Positions 3 through 6,758 of a DNA stretch of 33,298 nucleotides are shown one piece after another. The stretch comes from an uncultured Porphyromonadaceae bacterium (GTDB taxonomy: Bacteria > Bacteroidota > Bacteroidia > Bacteroidales > Muribaculaceae). Position 1 is the first letter of the stretch. Each line of letters opens with the position of its first letter. The translations under genes were made by a program, and so were the position numbers. Location: positions 1 to 33,298 of the forward strand of contig CANOLV010000027.1 of the NCBI GenBank assembly GCA_947567425.1, read 5' to 3'. The notes below the pieces were generated by a model. The model did no database searches, was not told the origin of the DNA, and was given only the letters and a program-made list of their open reading frames with translations.

Positions 3-332
3 TATCCCCCGCGCAACGACAACAAAGAAGGCTGGGACAACATCGACATCTTCGGCTGGATGGGCTATCCGATGCAGATCAAGATCAACTTCCTCTGCCG
101 CGACTCAATCCTCGCCGCCCCGCTCTGTCTCGACCTCTGCCTTCTGATAGACCTCGCCGCACGCTGTGGCCGCTACGGCATCCAGGACTTCCTGAGCTTC
201 TTCCTCAAGAGCCCGATGCACGACTACACCAAGGGCGAAATCCCTGTCAACAATCTGTTTGAGCAGTACATCATGCTCAAGAACGCCATCCGCGAAATGG
301 GCGGATACAAGGCCGACGAACTCATCGACTAA
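3..332 (+). CDS. ino1: Myo-inositol-1-phosphate synthase, C-terminal part
   Basis: This is the last 109 residues of a gene that begins before the window. The enzyme converts glucose 6-phosphate to inositol 1-phosphate in an NAD-dependent reaction, the first step to inositol lipids, which many Bacteroidales make. The visible stretch GWMGYPMQIKINFLCRDS followed by ILAAPLCLDL and later FLSFFLKSPM matches the conserved C-terminal catalytic region of the family (known from family knowledge). The frame is open from base 3 and ends in TAA. A strong hairpin terminator follows 29 bases later, so it is the last gene of its transcript. An internal ATG at base 60 is not the real start, because homology continues upstream of it. 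Confidence 0.9.
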   Translation, partial: YPPRNDNKEGWDNIDIFGWMGYPMQIKINFLCRDSILAAPLCLDLCLLIDLAARCGRYGIQDFLSFFLKSPMHDYTKGEIPVNNLFEQYIMLKNAIREMGGYKADELID

Positions 333-361
333 TCCTGAACTGTTAAAGTTAAGCTACAACA

Positions 362-400
362 TAGAAGGCACCGCACATCACCTGCGGTGCCTTCTACTTT
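362..400 (+). terminator. Rho-independent terminator after ino1
   Basis: A 14-bp perfect stem (362-375 with 383-396) encloses a 7-base loop and is followed by a short T-rich stretch. It separates the inositol synthase gene from the ilv promoter. Confidence 0.85.
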
Positions 401-482
401 ATACGGGAGGTCGACAAAACGCACTAATGGACAACACAATGATAATAAAACGTCTCCGATAAGTGTAATTTATATTAAAATA

Positions 483-514
483 TTTGGCAGTTTTAGCAAA
501 ATATAATACTTTTG
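483..514 (+). promoter_or_regulatory. Bacteroidetes-type promoter of the ilv operon
   Basis: TTTG at 483-486 and TACTTTTG at 507-514 are separated by 20 bases, which fits the Bacteroidetes primary sigma factor consensus. Transcription would begin near 520, about 24 bases before the leader peptide ATG. Confidence 0.75.
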
Positions 515-543
515 CAAAGAATTACTACAAAAGAATAAACAGA

Positions 544-618
544 ATGCCCACTTACGCCATTATGATTATCAGCCACCTCAACGTGGTCATTACCGTCCTA
601 CCTCAGCCGGGAGCATAA
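544..618 (+). CDS. Branched-chain amino acid leader peptide (24 codons)
   Basis: A 24-codon frame starts at ATG 544, after an A-rich stretch and about 24 bases after the predicted transcription start. It ends at TAA 616-618. Nine of its 24 residues are Ile (4), Val (3) or Leu (2), clustered in codons 6-19 as AIMIIS, HLNVVIT and VL. That is the composition expected of a ribosome-sensing leader for an isoleucine/valine operon. Its last codons (CCG GGA GCA) contain the antiterminator strand 607-614. A small hairpin (572-576 with 583-587, one G.U) lies inside the codons and could act as a pause site. It is too short for ordinary gene calling. The role is inferred from composition, position and the RNA structures that follow. 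Confidence 0.75.
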   Translation: MPTYAIMIISHLNVVITVLPQPGA

Positions 619-664
619 TCGTATTGCCGTATGACAGCAAACTACAATCTATAAAAGCTCCCGG
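607..664 (+). promoter_or_regulatory. Antiterminator pairing of the ilv attenuator
   Basis: Bases 607-614 (CCGGGAGC) are the exact reverse complement of 657-664 (GCTCCCGG). The second strand is also the 5' arm of the terminator at 654-689, so the two structures exclude each other. The first strand lies in the final three sense codons of the leader peptide. A ribosome that finishes the peptide would cover it and allow termination. One stalled at the upstream Ile/Val codons would leave it free to block the terminator. Confidence 0.7.
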
Positions 665-696
665 AATCGCAGACCGACACGGGGGCTTTGCTTTTT
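654..696 (+). terminator. Attenuator terminator upstream of ilvD
   Basis: Ten base pairs (654-663 with 680-689, one G.U pair at 659/684) enclose a 16-base loop. TTTTT follows at 692-696. It lies between the leader peptide and ilvD, so it is a premature terminator rather than the end of a gene. Confidence 0.75.
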
Positions 697-760
697 CAGC
701 GGACCACCGCATCGACAAGCATCGCACGGAAAGAAAACGTTAAGAAAAAAGTATCAAGAC

Positions 761-2587
761 ATGATCATACCACTACGCAGCGCGGCAAGCACCGCAGGCC
801 GGCGGATGGCCGGCGCAAGAGCTCTCTGGAGAGCAAACGGAATGACTGAGGAACAGATGGGCAAGCCCATCATAGCCATAGTCAATTCGTTCACGCAGTT
901 CGTGCCCGGCCACACCCATCTGCACGAAATCGGCCAGACCGTCAAAAAAGAGATCGAACGCCTCGTATGCTTCGCGGCCGAATTCAACACCATAGCCATC
1001 GACGACGGTATAGCCATGGGCCACGACGGCATGCTCTACTCTCTGCCCTCGCGCGACCTGATAGCCGACTCCGTGGAGTATATGGTCAATGCCCACAAGG
1101 CCGACGCCATGGTGTGCATATCCAACTGCGACAAAGTGACGCCCGGAATGCTCATGGCCGCCATGCGCCTCAACATCCCCGCCATATTCGTGTCAGGAGG
1201 ACCAATGGAGGCCGGCGACCTCAACGGCAGGGCACTCGACCTGATAGACATAATGGTCGACTCGGCCGACGAATCGGTCAGCGACGACATGGTAAGGCTG
1301 CTCGAAGAGAAAGGATGCCCCACGTGCGGCTCATGCTCGGGCATGTTCACCGCCAACTCGATGAACTCGCTCAACGAGGCATTAGGACTCGCCCTGCCCG
1401 GCAACGGCACTCTGGTGGCCACACACGCCAACCGCGAAGAGCTGTTCAAGGAAGCGGCCCGCAGAATCGTAGAAAACACTTATTCCTACTACCGCGACGG
1501 CGACGACAGCGTGCTGCCCCGCTCCATAGCTTCACGTCAGGCCATGCTCAACGCCATGTCGCTCGACATAGCTATGGGCGGATCCACCAACACCGTGCTC
1601 CATCTGCTCGCCATAGCACATGAGGCCGGAGCCGACTTCACCATAGCCGACATCGACCGTCTGTCAAGGTCGACCCCCGTACTGTGCAAGGTGGCCCCCA
1701 ACTCAAAATATCACATACAGGACGTCAACCGCGCGGGTGGCATAATGTCTATAATGTGTCAGCTGGCAGGGAAAGGGATTGTCGACACATCCGTCAGACG
1801 CGTCGACGGACTGACTCTCGGCGAGGCCATAGACCGCTACGCCTTGGAGGGAGCAGGATTCTCAAACAAAGCCCGCGACTTATGGCTTAGCGCACCAGGA
1901 GGAGGCCGCAACATCAGCCTTGGATCACAAAATGCCCGCTACGGCGAGCTCGACAGCGACCGCGCTTCAGGTTGCATCCGCGACTTTGACCACGCATACG
2001 TCAAGGACGGCGGACTGGCCGTGCTGCGCGGCAACATCGCCGCCGACGGATGTGTGGTAAAGACAGCCGGAGTCGACGAATCGCTGTTCAGGTTCAGCGG
2101 TCCGGCCAAAGTGTTCCGTTCGCAGGAAGAGGCCGTCGACGGCATACTCCGTGACAGAGTGAAGAGCGGCGACGTGGTAGTCATCACCCATGAAGGACCC
2201 AAAGGTGGACCCGGAATGCAGGAGATGCTCTACCCGACAAGTTACATAAAGTCAAAGCATCTGGGCAAAGAGTGCGCCCTTATCACCGACGGACGCTTCT
2301 CAGGAGGCACATCAGGACTATCAATAGGCCACATATCGCCTGAAGCGGCCGCGGGAGGAGCCATCGGACTCGTGCGCGAGGGCGACATCATCGACATCGA
2401 CATCCCAGCACGAAGCATCAACGTCAGAGTGTCCGACGAAGAGCTGTCGCGGCGACGGGCCGAAGAGGAAGCCCGCGGAAAAGACGCGTTCACTCCCACC
2501 GGACGCGACCGCCAGGTGAGCCTCGCGCTCAAGGCTTATGCCTCAATGGTGTCGTCGGCCGACAAGGGAGGTGTCAGAATCCTATAA
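761..2587 (+). CDS. ilvD: Dihydroxy-acid dehydratase
   Basis: This 608-residue enzyme dehydrates 2,3-dihydroxy-isovalerate and -methylvalerate to the keto acids that precede valine and isoleucine. Visible signatures are [13 protein letters not shown] near residue 16, [13 protein letters not shown] near 42, [10 protein letters not shown] (Cys123) and [12 protein letters not shown] (Cys192). The N-terminal [10 protein letters not shown] form is that of the Escherichia coli-type enzyme, which carries an oxygen-labile 4Fe-4S cluster; this would suit an anaerobe. Length is close to the E. coli protein (616). The start is supported by the N-terminal alignment from the first few residues. It is the first structural gene after the attenuator, with ilvB 63 bases downstream. 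Confidence 0.97.
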
Positions 2588-2650: not shown

Positions 2651-4366
2651 ATGAAAGAACTTATTTCCGGATCGGATGCACTGATACAGTCGCTCATCCT
2701 CGAAGGCACCGACATGGTGTTCGGCTATCCAGGCGGATCAATCATGCCCGTCTACGACCGGCTGTTCGACTATCAGGACCGGCTCAAGCACATATTGGTG
2801 CGCCATGAACAAGGCGCCACCCACGCGGCGCAAGGCTATGCACGGGTGACCGGACGCACCGGCGTGGTGATCGTGACATCAGGCCCAGCGGCCACCAACG
2901 TCATCACCGGACTTAGCGACGCGCTCATGGACAGCACCCCAATGGTAGTGGTCACCGGACAGGTAGCCACCCCGTTTCTGGGCTTCGACGCATTTCAGGA
3001 GACCGACGTGGTGGGCATCACACAGCCGATCACCAAATGGAGCTACCAGATACGCCGTGCGGAAGATGTGGCATGGGCCGTGGCCCGTGCATTCTACATC
3101 GCGTCCACAGGCCGCCCGGGTCCGGTGGTGCTCGACATCACAAAGGACGCACAGGTGGGCATGACCGAGTTTGACTACAAACCGTGCAACTATATCCGCT
3201 CCTACAATCCGCGACCCGACATCAAGGAATCGGACCTGCTCAAAGCGGCGGAACTTATCAACCGGGCCGAACGCCCGATGATCCTGTCGGGACACGGAGT
3301 TATGATCTCCGGCGCCGAAGCCGAACTCGCCGAACTCGCCGAAAAGTCGGACATACCTGTAGCCACCACCCTGCTCGGACTGTCGACCATACCGTCCGAC
3401 CATCCCCTCTACAAGGGTATGCTCGGGATGCACGGCAACATCGGACCCAATGTCAACACTAACCGGGCCGACCTGATCATAGCCATAGGCATGCGCTTCG
3501 ACGACCGCATCACGGGCAATGTCAAGACTTACGCCCGAAACGCCAAAGTGCTCCACATAGACATCGACTCTTCGGAATTCGGCAAAAACATACCGGTCGA
3601 CGCCACAATCCACGGCGACGCACGCGACGCACTGCTAAAACTGCTTCCTCTGATAGAACCGCGCAAACGAACCCGATGGCTCGGCATGTTCGACAAACCT
3701 CAGCAGATAGAGTCGGAACAGGTCATCGAACGCGAGCTACATCCTGCCGGACCTAAGATGACCATGGGCGAAGTGGCGGCCAAAGTGAGCGAAGCCACCG
3801 GCCACCGCGCCATAGTGGTCACCGACGTAGGCCAGAACCAGATGCTTTCGGCCCGCTACTCGCGCTACTCCGAACCCCGGAGCATAGTCACGTCGGGCGG
3901 ACTCGGCACTATGGGCTTCGGACTCCCAGCCGCAATAGGAGCAAAAATGGGGCGCCCCGACCGTACTGTGTGCTTCTTCACCGGCGACGGCGGCCTTCAG
4001 ATGACCATCCAGGAGTTAGGCACGATCATGGAATACGGCACAGCCGTGAAAATCATACTGCTCAACAATAACTTTCTCGGCAACGTGCGCCAGTGGCAGG
4101 CCCTGTTCTTTAAAGGACGCTTCTCACAGACTCCGCTCGTCAATCCCGACTTTGTGGCGATAGCCGGTGCATACGGCATTCCGGCGGAGAACGTGGAGAC
4201 CCGCGACCAGCTCGACGGAGCCATCGGAAGGATGCTCGGCCACGACGGCCCCTATCTGATAAACGTCAACATCGACGAGACCGACATGGTATTCCCCATG
4301 ACTCCCGCCGGCGGCAATGTCGACTTCGTGATGCTCAACCAGACAGAGATATATCCGGTAGACTAA
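2651..4366 (+). CDS. ilvB: Acetolactate synthase, large (catalytic) subunit
   Basis: This 571-residue thiamine diphosphate enzyme condenses pyruvate with pyruvate or 2-oxobutyrate, the committed step of valine/isoleucine synthesis. The N-terminal Pyr domain has FGYPGGSIMPVYD and the catalytic glutamate Glu53 in VRHEQGA. A central FAD/DHAP domain follows, with SGHGVMISGA and GMRFDDRITG. The C-terminal PP domain has the ThDP/Mg motif GDG (445-447) through NNN (472-474), followed by FLGNVRQWQ. Biosynthetic (anabolic) type is indicated by the full FAD-domain motifs and the adjacent regulatory subunit gene. Confidence 0.97.
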   Translation: MKELISGSDALIQSLILEGTDMVFGYPGGSIMPVYDRLFDYQDRLKHILVRHEQGATHAAQGYARVTGRTGVVIVTSGPAATNVITGLSDALMDSTPMVVVTGQVATPFLGFDAFQETDVVGITQPITKWSYQIRRAEDVAWAVARAFYIASTGRPGPVVLDITKDAQVGMTEFDYKPCNYIRSYNPRPDIKESDLLKAAELINRAERPMILSGHGVMISGAEAELAELAEKSDIPVATTLLGLSTIPSDHPLYKGMLGMHGNIGPNVNTNRADLIIAIGMRFDDRITGNVKTYARNAKVLHIDIDSSEFGKNIPVDATIHGDARDALLKLLPLIEPRKRTRWLGMFDKPQQIESEQVIERELHPAGPKMTMGEVAAKVSEATGHRAIVVTDVGQNQMLSARYSRYSEPRSIVTSGGLGTMGFGLPAAIGAKMGRPDRTVCFFTGDGGLQMTIQELGTIMEYGTAVKIILLNNNFLGNVRQWQALFFKGRFSQTPLVNPDFVAIAGAYGIPAENVETRDQLDGAIGRMLGHDGPYLINVNIDETDMVFPMTPAGGNVDFVMLNQTEIYPVD

Positions 4367-4380
4367 TATTGACAAGAATT

Positions 4381-4923
4381 ATGGACGAACAATTATTCAC
4401 AGTTACGGTGTTCACCGAGAACCAGGTGGGTCTGCTCAACCAGATTTCCATAGTATTTACCCGCCGGTGCCTCAACATAGAGAGCCTGTCGGTCAGCCCG
4501 TCGTCAATCAACGGCATACACAAATTCACCATCACCTGCTACAGCAACCGCGCCATGATGGAGCGCGTGGTTAAGCAGATCGAGAAGCGTATCGACGTGC
4601 TGAAATCATTTTTATACACCGACGATGAAATAGTCTACCAGGAAGTGGCGTTATATAAAGTGCCTACACCGCGTCTGCTCGACGACAGGACTGTGGAGGA
4701 AATCATACGGCGCCACAATGCCCGCATACTCGAAATCACCCGCGAATACGTGATAATCGAGAAAACAGGGCATTCCGACGAGACCGAATCGCTCTTCGAC
4801 GAACTGAAAAAGTATGACATACGCCAGTTCGTGCGCTCAGGGCGCGTGGCCGTCACCAAATCGCCGGAAGAGTATCTGACAATGTATCTGGAGGAGCAGG
4901 AGTGCAGGCTGAACGAACTATAA
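4381..4923 (+). CDS. ilvN: Acetolactate synthase, small (regulatory) subunit
   Basis: This 180-residue subunit binds the large subunit and gives valine feedback inhibition. An N-terminal ACT domain spans roughly residues 4-75, with TENQVGLLNQISIVFTRR and LNIESLSVSPS. A C-terminal ALS_ss-type region follows (EEIIRRHNARILEITREYVI). The frame is also open from a TTG at 4369. I prefer ATG 4381 because the ACT domain begins immediately after it and the ilvB stop is only 14 bases upstream. It lies directly between ilvB and the thioesterase gene. Confidence 0.92.
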   Translation: MDEQLFTVTVFTENQVGLLNQISIVFTRRCLNIESLSVSPSSINGIHKFTITCYSNRAMMERVVKQIEKRIDVLKSFLYTDDEIVYQEVALYKVPTPRLLDDRTVEEIIRRHNARILEITREYVIIEKTGHSDETESLFDELKKYDIRQFVRSGRVAVTKSPEEYLTMYLEEQECRLNEL

Positions 4924-4928
4924 ACTCC

Positions 4929-5681
4929 ATGGGTTTTATGAACGAATATACCGCCAACTACTTTCTTACTGCCGGGGAATGCTCCCCTGAAGGGACTATC
5001 CCCGTGACACTTCTCGCCAACCGCATAATCGAGACCGCCACCCTGCATGCCAACATGCTCGGCGTAGGCTATGAACGTCTACTTGAGGACGGCACCGCAT
5101 GGGTGCTCTCGCGCCTGTCGATCGAGATGCACGAATGGCCGGAAGTCAACCGACCTTACAGTCTGACCACATGGGTGGAGGGCTATAACCGCCACTTTTC
5201 AGAACGCGACTTCGAAATCAGAGACCCGGAGGGCCGCGTGCTCGGATATGCAAGATCAGTCTGGATGACCATCAACATACGCACCCGCCAGGGCGGCCAG
5301 CTCAACGGACTTGAAAAACTGGGCGAGGTGGTGTCGGACCGTCCATGCCCGATCGGGAAATGCCCGAAGCTGACCGCCGTCGACGTAGCCCGGGCCAAAA
5401 GCGGCTTCTACACATTCCGCTACACAGACTGCGACTTCAACCGCCACGTCAACACTGTGCGCTATATGGAGCTGTTGCTCAACCAATGGGACCTCGATTT
5501 CCATGACAGCCACAGATTGCGCCGGTTTGACATAGCCTTCATGCGCGAGTCATATTTCGGCGAAGAGGTAAAAGTGCTTGTCGACGCCGACGCGCAGACC
5601 GCCGACGCCTACCGCTGCGAGATAGACGGTCAGGATGGTCCGTGCGTAAGGGCTTCAATCACCTACAACAGAATTAATTAA
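4929..5681 (+). CDS. Acyl-ACP thioesterase
   Basis: About 250 residues form a double hotdog thioesterase that releases fatty acids from acyl carrier protein (FatA/FatB-like). The first hotdog contains AWVLSRLSIEMHEWP and LGYARSVWMTINI. The second contains DCDFNRHVNTVRYMELLL, where the Asn-x-His motif is the catalytic signature of this family. Bacteroides thetaiotaomicron has a structurally solved homologue in the same ilv neighbourhood (established knowledge). The frame also opens at 4902, inside ilvN. ATG 4929, just after the ilvN stop, or ATG 4938 is more likely. Its position between ilvN and ilvC suggests co-regulation with branched-chain amino acid, and perhaps branched fatty acid, synthesis (inference). 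Confidence 0.9.
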   Translation: MGFMNEYTANYFLTAGECSPEGTIPVTLLANRIIETATLHANMLGVGYERLLEDGTAWVLSRLSIEMHEWPEVNRPYSLTTWVEGYNRHFSERDFEIRDPEGRVLGYARSVWMTINIRTRQGGQLNGLEKLGEVVSDRPCPIGKCPKLTAVDVARAKSGFYTFRYTDCDFNRHVNTVRYMELLLNQWDLDFHDSHRLRRFDIAFMRESYFGEEVKVLVDADAQTADAYRCEIDGQDGPCVRASITYNRIN

Positions 5682-5714: not shown

Positions 5715-6758
5715 ATGGCAACATTAAACTTTGGCGGAGTTGACGAAACCGTCATCACCCGCGAAGAGTTCACACTTGAAAAAGCGCGCGAAGTACTTAA
5801 AGGCGAGACTTTGGCCGTACTCGGCTACGGAGTCCAGGGTCCCGGCCAGGGCCTCGACCTCAGAGACAACGGATTCAACGTCATAGTAGGCCAGCGCGAA
5901 GGAAAGACGTATGAAAAGGCCGTGGCCGACGGATGGGTCCCCGGCGAAACTCTCTTTTCGATCGAAGAAGCCTGCAAGCGCGGCACCATCATCATGTGCC
6001 TGCTGAGCGACGCGGCCGTTATATCCCAGTGGCCCGTGATCAAGAAACATCTCACTCCCGGCAAAGCCCTCTACTTCAGCCACGGATTCGCCATCAACTG
6101 GAGCGACCGCACCGGCGTGGTACCTCCGGCCGACGTAGACGTGATCATGGTGGCCCCGAAAGGGTCAGGCACCATGCTGCGTGTGCTCTTCAAAGAGGGC
6201 AAAGGCACCAACTCAAGTTTCGCCGTATATCAGGACGCCACAGGCAAGGCGCTTGAACGCACACTCGCCATCGGCATAGGCATCGGCTCAGGCTATCTGT
6301 TTGAGACTACTTTCCAGCGCGAGGCAGTCTCCGACCTTACCGGCGAACGCGGTTCGCTGATGGGTGCCATCCAAGGTCTTTTCCTTGCACAGTATGAAGT
6401 GCTCCGCGAAAACGGCCACACTCCGTCGGAAGCTTTCAACGAGACTGTCGAGGAGCTTACCCAATCGCTTATGCCCCTGTTTGCGGCAAAAGGCATGGAC
6501 TGGATGTATGCCAACTGTTCCACCACCGCCCAGCGCGGCGCACTCGACTGGATGGGTCCGTTCCACGATGCCATCAAGCCTGTGATGTATCAGCTTTACG
6601 ACAGCGTAAAGACCGGACAGGAGGCCCAGCGTTCTATCGACTCCAACACCAAGAGCGACTACCGCGCCGGACTCGAAGAAGAACTCCGTCAGCTACGCGA
6701 GAGCGAGATGTGGCGCGCGGCTGAAACCGTACGCTCCCTCCGTCCTGAAAACAACTGA
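5715..6758 (+). CDS. ilvC: Ketol-acid reductoisomerase (NADP+)
   Basis: This 347-residue class I enzyme isomerises and reduces acetolactate to 2,3-dihydroxy-isovalerate, with Mg2+ and NADPH. The Rossmann motif GYGVQGPGQG lies near residues 38-47. The cofactor-phosphate loop reads VGQREGKTYEKA, and VAPKGSGTMLR lies near residue 145. The C-terminal knotted domain has YLFETTFQREAVSDLTGERG (metal-binding Asp/Glu) and NETVEELTQSL. The C-terminal RPENN matches Bacteroidetes homologues. It is the last gene of the operon, followed by a strong terminator. Confidence 0.97.
   Translation: MATLNFGGVDETVITREEFTLEKAREVLKGETLAVLGYGVQGPGQGLDLRDNGFNVIVGQREGKTYEKAVADGWVPGETLFSIEEACKRGTIIMCLLSDAAVISQWPVIKKHLTPGKALYFSHGFAINWSDRTGVVPPADVDVIMVAPKGSGTMLRVLFKEGKGTNSSFAVYQDATGKALERTLAIGIGIGSGYLFETTFQREAVSDLTGERGSLMGAIQGLFLAQYEVLRENGHTPSEAFNETVEELTQSLMPLFAAKGMDWMYANCSTTAQRGALDWMGPFHDAIKPVMYQLYDSVKTGQEAQRSIDSNTKSDYRAGLEEELRQLRESEMWRAAETVRSLRPENN

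Follow-up and report, generated by a model that had tools for sequence, protein, structure and literature searches.

A probable ribosome-mediated attenuator ahead of the ilvD operon of a Muribaculaceae bacterium and its patchy recurrence among Bacteroidales

The enterobacterial ilvGMEDA, ilvBN, leu and trp operons are controlled by ribosome-mediated attenuators, and in these archetypes the leader contains a protector (pause) hairpin. The Bacteroid-trp motif is a leader-peptide attenuator located ahead of trp genes. This motif (RF01692) is presented as a Bacteroidetes cis-regulatory RNA in the relevant passage of PMC2864571. Leader-peptide attenuation, classic in proteobacteria, is also reported from Actinobacteria and Firmicutes in passages of PMC2965389 and PMC10272879, and for the ilvBNC leader of Corynebacterium a three-hairpin model has been put forward (PMC11857589, in the passage concerned). 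Within Bacteroidota, the pertinent passages speak of ‘strong clues’ for leader-peptide attenuation before amino-acid operons of Flavobacterium psychrophilum (PMC9723704) and of sORFs reminiscent of leader peptides within long 5' UTRs of B. thetaiotaomicron (PMC7366714). Given that leader peptides have already been suggested for Bacteroidota in these two papers, the phylum had been linked to this mechanism before. A preliminary description of the locus considered here remarked that such attenuators are less documented in Bacteroidetes; the string ‘ilv’ is absent from the main texts of PMC9723704 and PMC7366714. Among the open-access articles searched, none was found to describe the ilvD leader, the alternative structures that it can adopt or how it is distributed in Bacteroidales, and the searched literature yielded little on the control of amino-acid synthesis in Bacteroidales.

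The locus lies in a stretch of 33,298 nucleotides from an uncultured Porphyromonadaceae bacterium assigned to the Muribaculaceae (contig CANOLV010000027.1; hereafter the window). Positions 3-329 of the window are the final part of a gene resembling myo-inositol-1-phosphate synthase (Pfam), and the genes 3' of the leader, which form a predicted operon, belong to the Ile/Leu/Val pathway (ilvD, ilvB, ilvN and ilvC, by Pfam). A gene for an acyl-ACP thioesterase is placed between ilvN and ilvC. The features are the following.

483 to 486, plus strand: TTTG, candidate -33 element of a Bacteroidota-type promoter (sequence; consensus as quoted in the relevant passage of PMC7366714)
507 to 514, plus strand: TAcTTTTG, a match to TAnnTTTG and candidate -7 element (sequence; consensus from the same passage of PMC7366714)
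544 to 618, plus strand: leader peptide ORF, product MPTYAIMIISHLNVVITVLPQPGA followed by the stop codon (sequence; similar leader type in relatives)
583 to 597, plus strand: putative sensing codons Val-Val-Ile-Thr-Val, at which the ribosome would stall (sequence)
607 to 614, plus strand: antiterminator strand A, CCGGGAGC, within leader codons 22-24 (sequence, complementarity test, swap test)
654 to 689, plus strand: terminator hairpin of 10 pairs, dG -17.8 kcal/mol (fold energy; covariation among relatives)
657 to 664, plus strand: switch strand B, GCTCCCGG, whose partner is either A or, for 657-663, the 3' arm of the terminator (sequence, covariation)
692 to 696, plus strand: T run 3' of the hairpin, after a GC spacer at 690-691 (sequence)
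761 to 2587, plus strand: ilvD, dihydroxy-acid dehydratase, first gene of the operon (Pfam PF00920, PF24877)
2651 to 4366, plus strand: ilvB, acetolactate synthase large subunit (Pfam TPP_enzyme N/M/C)
4384 to 4923, plus strand: ilvN, acetolactate synthase small subunit (Pfam ALS_ss_C)
4929 to 5681, plus strand: acyl-ACP thioesterase, within the operon (Pfam PF01643, PF20791)
5715 to 6758, plus strand: ilvC, ketol-acid reductoisomerase (Pfam KARI_N, KARI_C)

From these features and the comparisons that follow, we are highly confident that transcription of the ilvD-ilvB-ilvN-thioesterase-ilvC operon is attenuated by this element in a ribosome-mediated manner. The preliminary description had placed, in front of a Bacteroidales ilv operon, a promoter, a 24-codon leader with nine Ile/Val/Leu residues, an antiterminator strand perfectly complementary to 657-664 and a 10-bp terminator with a T run just before ilvD, and all of these were recovered at the positions listed above, the T run in an imperfect form. 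Ile, Leu and Val account for nine of the 24 residues of the leader, which ends with the stop codon at 616-618, and the VVIT core is found again in several leaders of the window's genus. With the promoter elements at 483-486 and 507-514, the transcript is expected to start near 518-522; a simple sigma-70 scan lists no sigma-70-like promoter on the plus strand just 5' of the leader.

Strands A and B are reverse complements at all eight of eight bases, and the complementarity between the leader end and the 5' arm of the hairpin is significant in the window (p 0.001 against a shuffled leader-end zone). The terminator-like hairpin, with one G-U among its 10 pairs, has a z-score of -3.3; for the antiterminator that competes with it (600-666), dG is -18.8 kcal/mol and the z-score -3.2. 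The leader region as a whole (530-760) does not fold unusually well (z -1.1, with 31 of 200 shuffles equally good); the folding signal is in the two specific pairings, not in the whole leader region. The hairpin at 654-689 is missed by a simple hairpin scan because the rule of that scan permits only loops of 3-8. GC intervenes between the stem and the T run at 692-696, though the stem itself ends in TTT. No protector hairpin was detected in the window (p 0.96), in agreement with the two-structure design proposed earlier. In relatives, a protector was found at p≤0.05 in 13 of 65 loci (median p 0.35), with a mean energy across the set of -9.3 versus -8.2 kcal/mol for shuffled sequences, so that such a hairpin is at most weakly present in some of them.

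For the comparative analysis, 297 genomes of the family were sampled, 145 of which have an ilvD match at E≤1e-40, giving 146 places with the window included. A further 80 ilvD loci, the best 80 among the matches listed, came from the GTDB contig collection. Of these 226 upstream regions, 213 were scored, after removal of two with an end sequence identical to that of another (L084 and L180, the same as L003 and L179), of L116, judged to be the same record as L002, and of 10 regions shorter than 230 nt. At this threshold, 152 of the 297 family genomes have no ilvD match. They include 113 of the 204 genomes with a completeness of 90% or more and a contamination of 5% or less, and many members of the family may have lost the synthesis of branched-chain amino acids.

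Under the strict definition, the module consists of an ORF of 12-46 codons in which at least 6 of 8 consecutive residues are Ile, Leu or Val, a hairpin that is followed by a T run and folds at -9 kcal/mol or lower, and, near the leader stop, an antiterminator duplex that likewise attains -9 or lower. All three parts are present in 65 of the 213 ilvD upstream regions, compared with one of 213 reverse complements and one of 4,260 dinucleotide shuffles (20 rounds), and given this near absence from the controls, a chance origin of the combination is very unlikely. A relaxed search, in which the T run is not required, found 52 of 213 regions, three of 213 reverse complements and none of 2,130 shuffles, and the union of both searches comprises 73 of 213. 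Within the 65 strict loci, TAnnTTTG occurs no more than 110 nt 5' of the leader in 60 (7.8 expected from shuffles). A YGTRBR-like element is mildly enriched 3' of the leader stop (28 of 65 loci, 16.0 expected, between -4 and +26) and is possibly an RNA polymerase pause signal.

When hairpins lacking a T run are counted as well, the window's family has the module in 38 of its 141 regions (L002 and L003 being grouped with it) and, among the matches listed, it occurs in 35 of 59 regions of other Bacteroidota and none of 13 of other phyla; here the phylum follows the record title, which for metagenome bins can be wrong. Closer to home, it is found at 11 of the 12 distinct ilvD loci of the window's genus, the window included, L193 being the one that lacks it. 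The short Ile/Val/Leu-rich ORF anticipated for relatives is therefore found both there and in many other Bacteroidales. Since the module went undetected in 103 of 141 family regions and, among the matches listed, in 24 of 59 regions of other Bacteroidota, it is widespread yet patchy, which argues against a universal role. Among the nine scored loci with Prevotella or Prevotellaceae titles in the matches listed, for instance, two (L008 and L020) are positive and seven (L036, L045, L046, L048, L051, L059 and L068) are negative. Some negatives (for example L012, L019 and L034) nevertheless have Ile/Leu/Val-rich leaders plus hairpins, and 10 of the 75 loci with leader and terminator fall short of the antiterminator threshold.

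Compensatory changes among relatives had been predicted for both pairings, and for the terminator they are evident. In a 65-row MAFFT alignment, 96.5% of the cells of the terminator stem are paired, and double-sided changes affect nine of 10 pairs (97 cells versus 31.9 in shuffles, a value reached by none of 500). A register taken from the window's row was tried and rejected: only 72.2% of its cells are paired, which does not exceed the shuffles, and the slide control shows it to be one column off most rows. For the antiterminator, the outcome is divided. In the Bacteroides register, 71.5% of cells are paired over the 65 rows and 60 cells carry double changes, versus 33.7 in shuffles (reached by none of 500) and 38 in the best slid version; the number of pairs with a double-sided change, eight of 10, does not exceed the shuffles (209 of 500). 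The MAFFT alignment (A1) leaves the A strand of the window out of register with Bacteroides-type rows, and A/B covariation is thus probably understated. The 65 rows were chosen for having both terminator and antiterminator, and related sequences inflate column shuffles.

The swap test is free of alignment and uses 75 loci picked without an antiterminator threshold. In this test, duplexes between A and B of the same locus have a mean energy of -14.1 kcal/mol, versus -10.8 for mismatched partners (none of 5,000 permutations), and for the A strand of the window its own terminator arm ranks first of the 75 arms. At loci with several hairpins, the choice between them was made by the better combined energy, a bias that touches the swap test as well. 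When the leader-end zone is shuffled, 46 of the 75 loci, not all of them, reach p≤0.05. In the nearest relative (L083, 95% identical to the window over ilvD residues 3-113), C at 607 is replaced by G and the G at 664 with which it pairs by T, so that a C-G pair becomes G-U. Taken together, the alignment and swap tests argue that both pairings are under selection.

Across the 65 loci, A starts at a median of 14 nt past the first base of the final Ile/Leu/Val cluster codon and 4 nt ahead of the end of the stop codon, overlapping the stop in 22 loci, preceding it in 19 and following it in 24; in the window, the corresponding distances are 9 nt and 12 nt. For the strict counts and the swap test, A was searched from -25 to +22 nt around the leader stop, and with the search restricted to the leader end, the nearness of A to the stop is partly built in. 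When the best partner of B was sought freely across as much as 130 nt ahead of the hairpin, 54 of 75 loci had its midpoint no more than 15 nt from the stop, whereas a uniform distribution would give 18.0. Given that A is in or next to the stop codon of the leader, the ribosome itself would be the only mask needed.

Folding of the transcript up to B with ribosome-sized masks is consistent with such a switch. In the window, the antiterminator has a probability of 1.0 with a stalled ribosome versus 0.0 with a ribosome at the stop, and the corresponding means over 65 loci are 0.72 and 0.04; the difference exceeds 0.3 in 50 of the 65, the switch not appearing in the other 15. In the full-length equilibrium fold, the terminator still wins with a stalled ribosome (probability 0.94 in the window), and when the full terminator is present, equilibrium favours it on average in all three modelled states. 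Accordingly, if the element is a switch, it must act kinetically, during transcription.

From the sequence and these models, we infer the following course of events, in agreement with the earlier proposal that the position of the ribosome decides between terminator and antiterminator, which the leader, covariation and masked folding support. The ribosome would trail RNA polymerase through the short leader. With charged tRNA-Ile, tRNA-Val and tRNA-Leu plentiful, it would get to the stop at 616-618 and mask A, leaving B free, whereupon the terminator would form and transcription would end near 692-696. Should tRNA for Val or Ile be short (Leu is a less certain signal), the ribosome would stall at the Val-Val-Ile-Thr-Val codons and leave A exposed to capture B once the latter is transcribed; with A and B paired, the terminator would come too late to form, and the operon would be transcribed.

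A similar arrangement is found ahead of other amino-acid genes in the window's genome. Upstream of hisG (L228, reverse strand), there is a leader with eight His, MKISTLSHHHHHHHHQSTTGGDDGMCV, followed by a hairpin of -26.6 kcal/mol and a T-rich tail. Upstream of pheA (L232, reverse strand), a leader with nine Phe/Tyr among 17 residues, MTRFYAYYFSYFYFARD, is followed by a hairpin of -22.7. The leader end is complementary to the 5' side of the hairpin in both cases, with p 0.003 at pheA and p 0.037 at hisG; in the latter, the complement extends into the hairpin loop, and the zone used was -45 to +2 rather than the -25 to +22 applied to ilvD and pheA. The composition of the leader thus tracks the pathway, which provides independent support for the mechanism. 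No similar leader was seen upstream of the LeuA-like and homoserine dehydrogenase genes of the same genome, and a trp comparison was impossible, given that the TrpE domain has no match in this incomplete assembly. In three Marinifilaceae-type loci, two leader-plus-hairpin units stand in series before ilvD (about -408 to -107 relative to the ilvD match in L058, -364 to -70 in L072 and -363 to -71 in L075). Both leaders of each are Ile/Val/Leu-rich. At every one of these loci, an antiterminator reaches p<0.05 in one unit, while the second unit stands at p 0.088; these are possible tandem attenuators.

Other readings of the locus have to be weighed against attenuation. The hairpin might be a constitutive partial terminator, or a stabiliser of the mRNA 5' end, with the ORF and the complementary strand there by coincidence. 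In its favour, many genes have terminator-like hairpins, the T run here is imperfect and every modelled state has the hairpin as its preferred equilibrium fold, but coincidence accounts poorly for the joint recurrence of leader, Ile/Leu/Val density and A/B match in 65 of 213 regions and almost never in shuffles, for the covariation of A with B and for the clustering of freely searched A strands at the leader stop, and we give this explanation only a slim chance. For control of ilvD by a metabolite-binding riboswitch or a T-box, the chance appears very faint. The idea draws some plausibility from other phyla, where T-boxes and riboswitches are found ahead of amino-acid operons; however, a search with Rfam 15, covering riboswitch, T-box, Bacteroid-trp and ilvB-type motifs, found nothing at or above the gathering score in window positions 300-1000 or in 20 relatives, and a coding leader occupies most of the transcript before the hairpin.

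The leader product is short and hydrophobic, as would befit a functional small membrane-like peptide, with the RNA structures serving only its own expression. Beyond the Ile/Leu/Val clusters, however, little is shared among the leaders, the N-termini and tails of which vary even within the genus, and the change of composition to His before hisG and to Phe/Tyr before pheA would be hard to reconcile with such a peptide, an explanation to which we assign next to no chance. Attenuation by the translating ribosome is the reading that we retain, and the element is real, recurrent under selection and very probably functional.

In L083 and several loci of genus g6, the hairpin is present and the T run is almost missing, and strong attenuator-type hairpins with few or no T residues after them occur in L083, L086, L093, L098, L119 and L150. 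Termination at such T-poor loci may not be purely intrinsic. At about even chances, we propose that the Bacteroidales possess a widespread, stripped-down class of attenuator without a protector, in which A lies around the leader stop and the terminating ribosome would be the OFF switch, with the same plan reused before ilvD, pheA and hisG and in tandem in Marinifilaceae; given that T runs in this class are often poor, termination may need a helper factor.

Bacteroidales are major gut bacteria, and a recurrent leader with covarying alternative structures offers a concrete point at which control of their branched-chain amino acid supply can be tested. The minimal two-structure design and the wide distribution in Bacteroidales are the interesting aspects. 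If the proposed mechanism is true, coupled transcription and translation would act as a sensor in a phylum noted for the absence of Shine-Dalgarno sites, a statement made for a flavobacterium in the passage concerned of PMC9723704.

Like the enterobacterial ilvGMEDA, ilvBN, leu and trp attenuators, the element of the window has a leader in which the regulated amino acids are abundant, an antiterminator and a terminator of which only one can form at a time, and an operon of the same pathway downstream. Unlike them, it lacks a protector (pause) hairpin, none being clearly conserved in relatives either, its A strand lies in or next to the stop codon of the leader, and its promoter is of the Bacteroidota type. 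Given that the defining features tested were found and the archetypal protector hairpin was not, the element would work like a ribosome-mediated attenuator, and in our view a protector hairpin is not required for membership of that class. The Bacteroid-trp motif (RF01692) is likewise a Bacteroidota cis-regulatory element; it differs from the ilv module in the operon concerned, and the module has no Rfam match. In the same phylum, the leader peptides or leader-like sORFs of F. psychrophilum (PMC9723704) and B. thetaiotaomicron (PMC7366714) are comparable, whereas an ilvD leader, alternative structures and comparative evidence are absent from the relevant passages of these papers. The ilvB-II motif and ilvBNC leader of Corynebacterium, as described in the passage concerned of PMC10272879, share with the window an Ile/Leu/Val-enriched short ORF and a terminator and antiterminator before ilv genes. 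In that motif, however, stem P1 covers most of the ORF, the antiterminator joins the P1 loop to the right shoulder of P2 and the gene is ilvB, whereas in the window the left arm of the terminator is the partner of A and the gene is ilvD.
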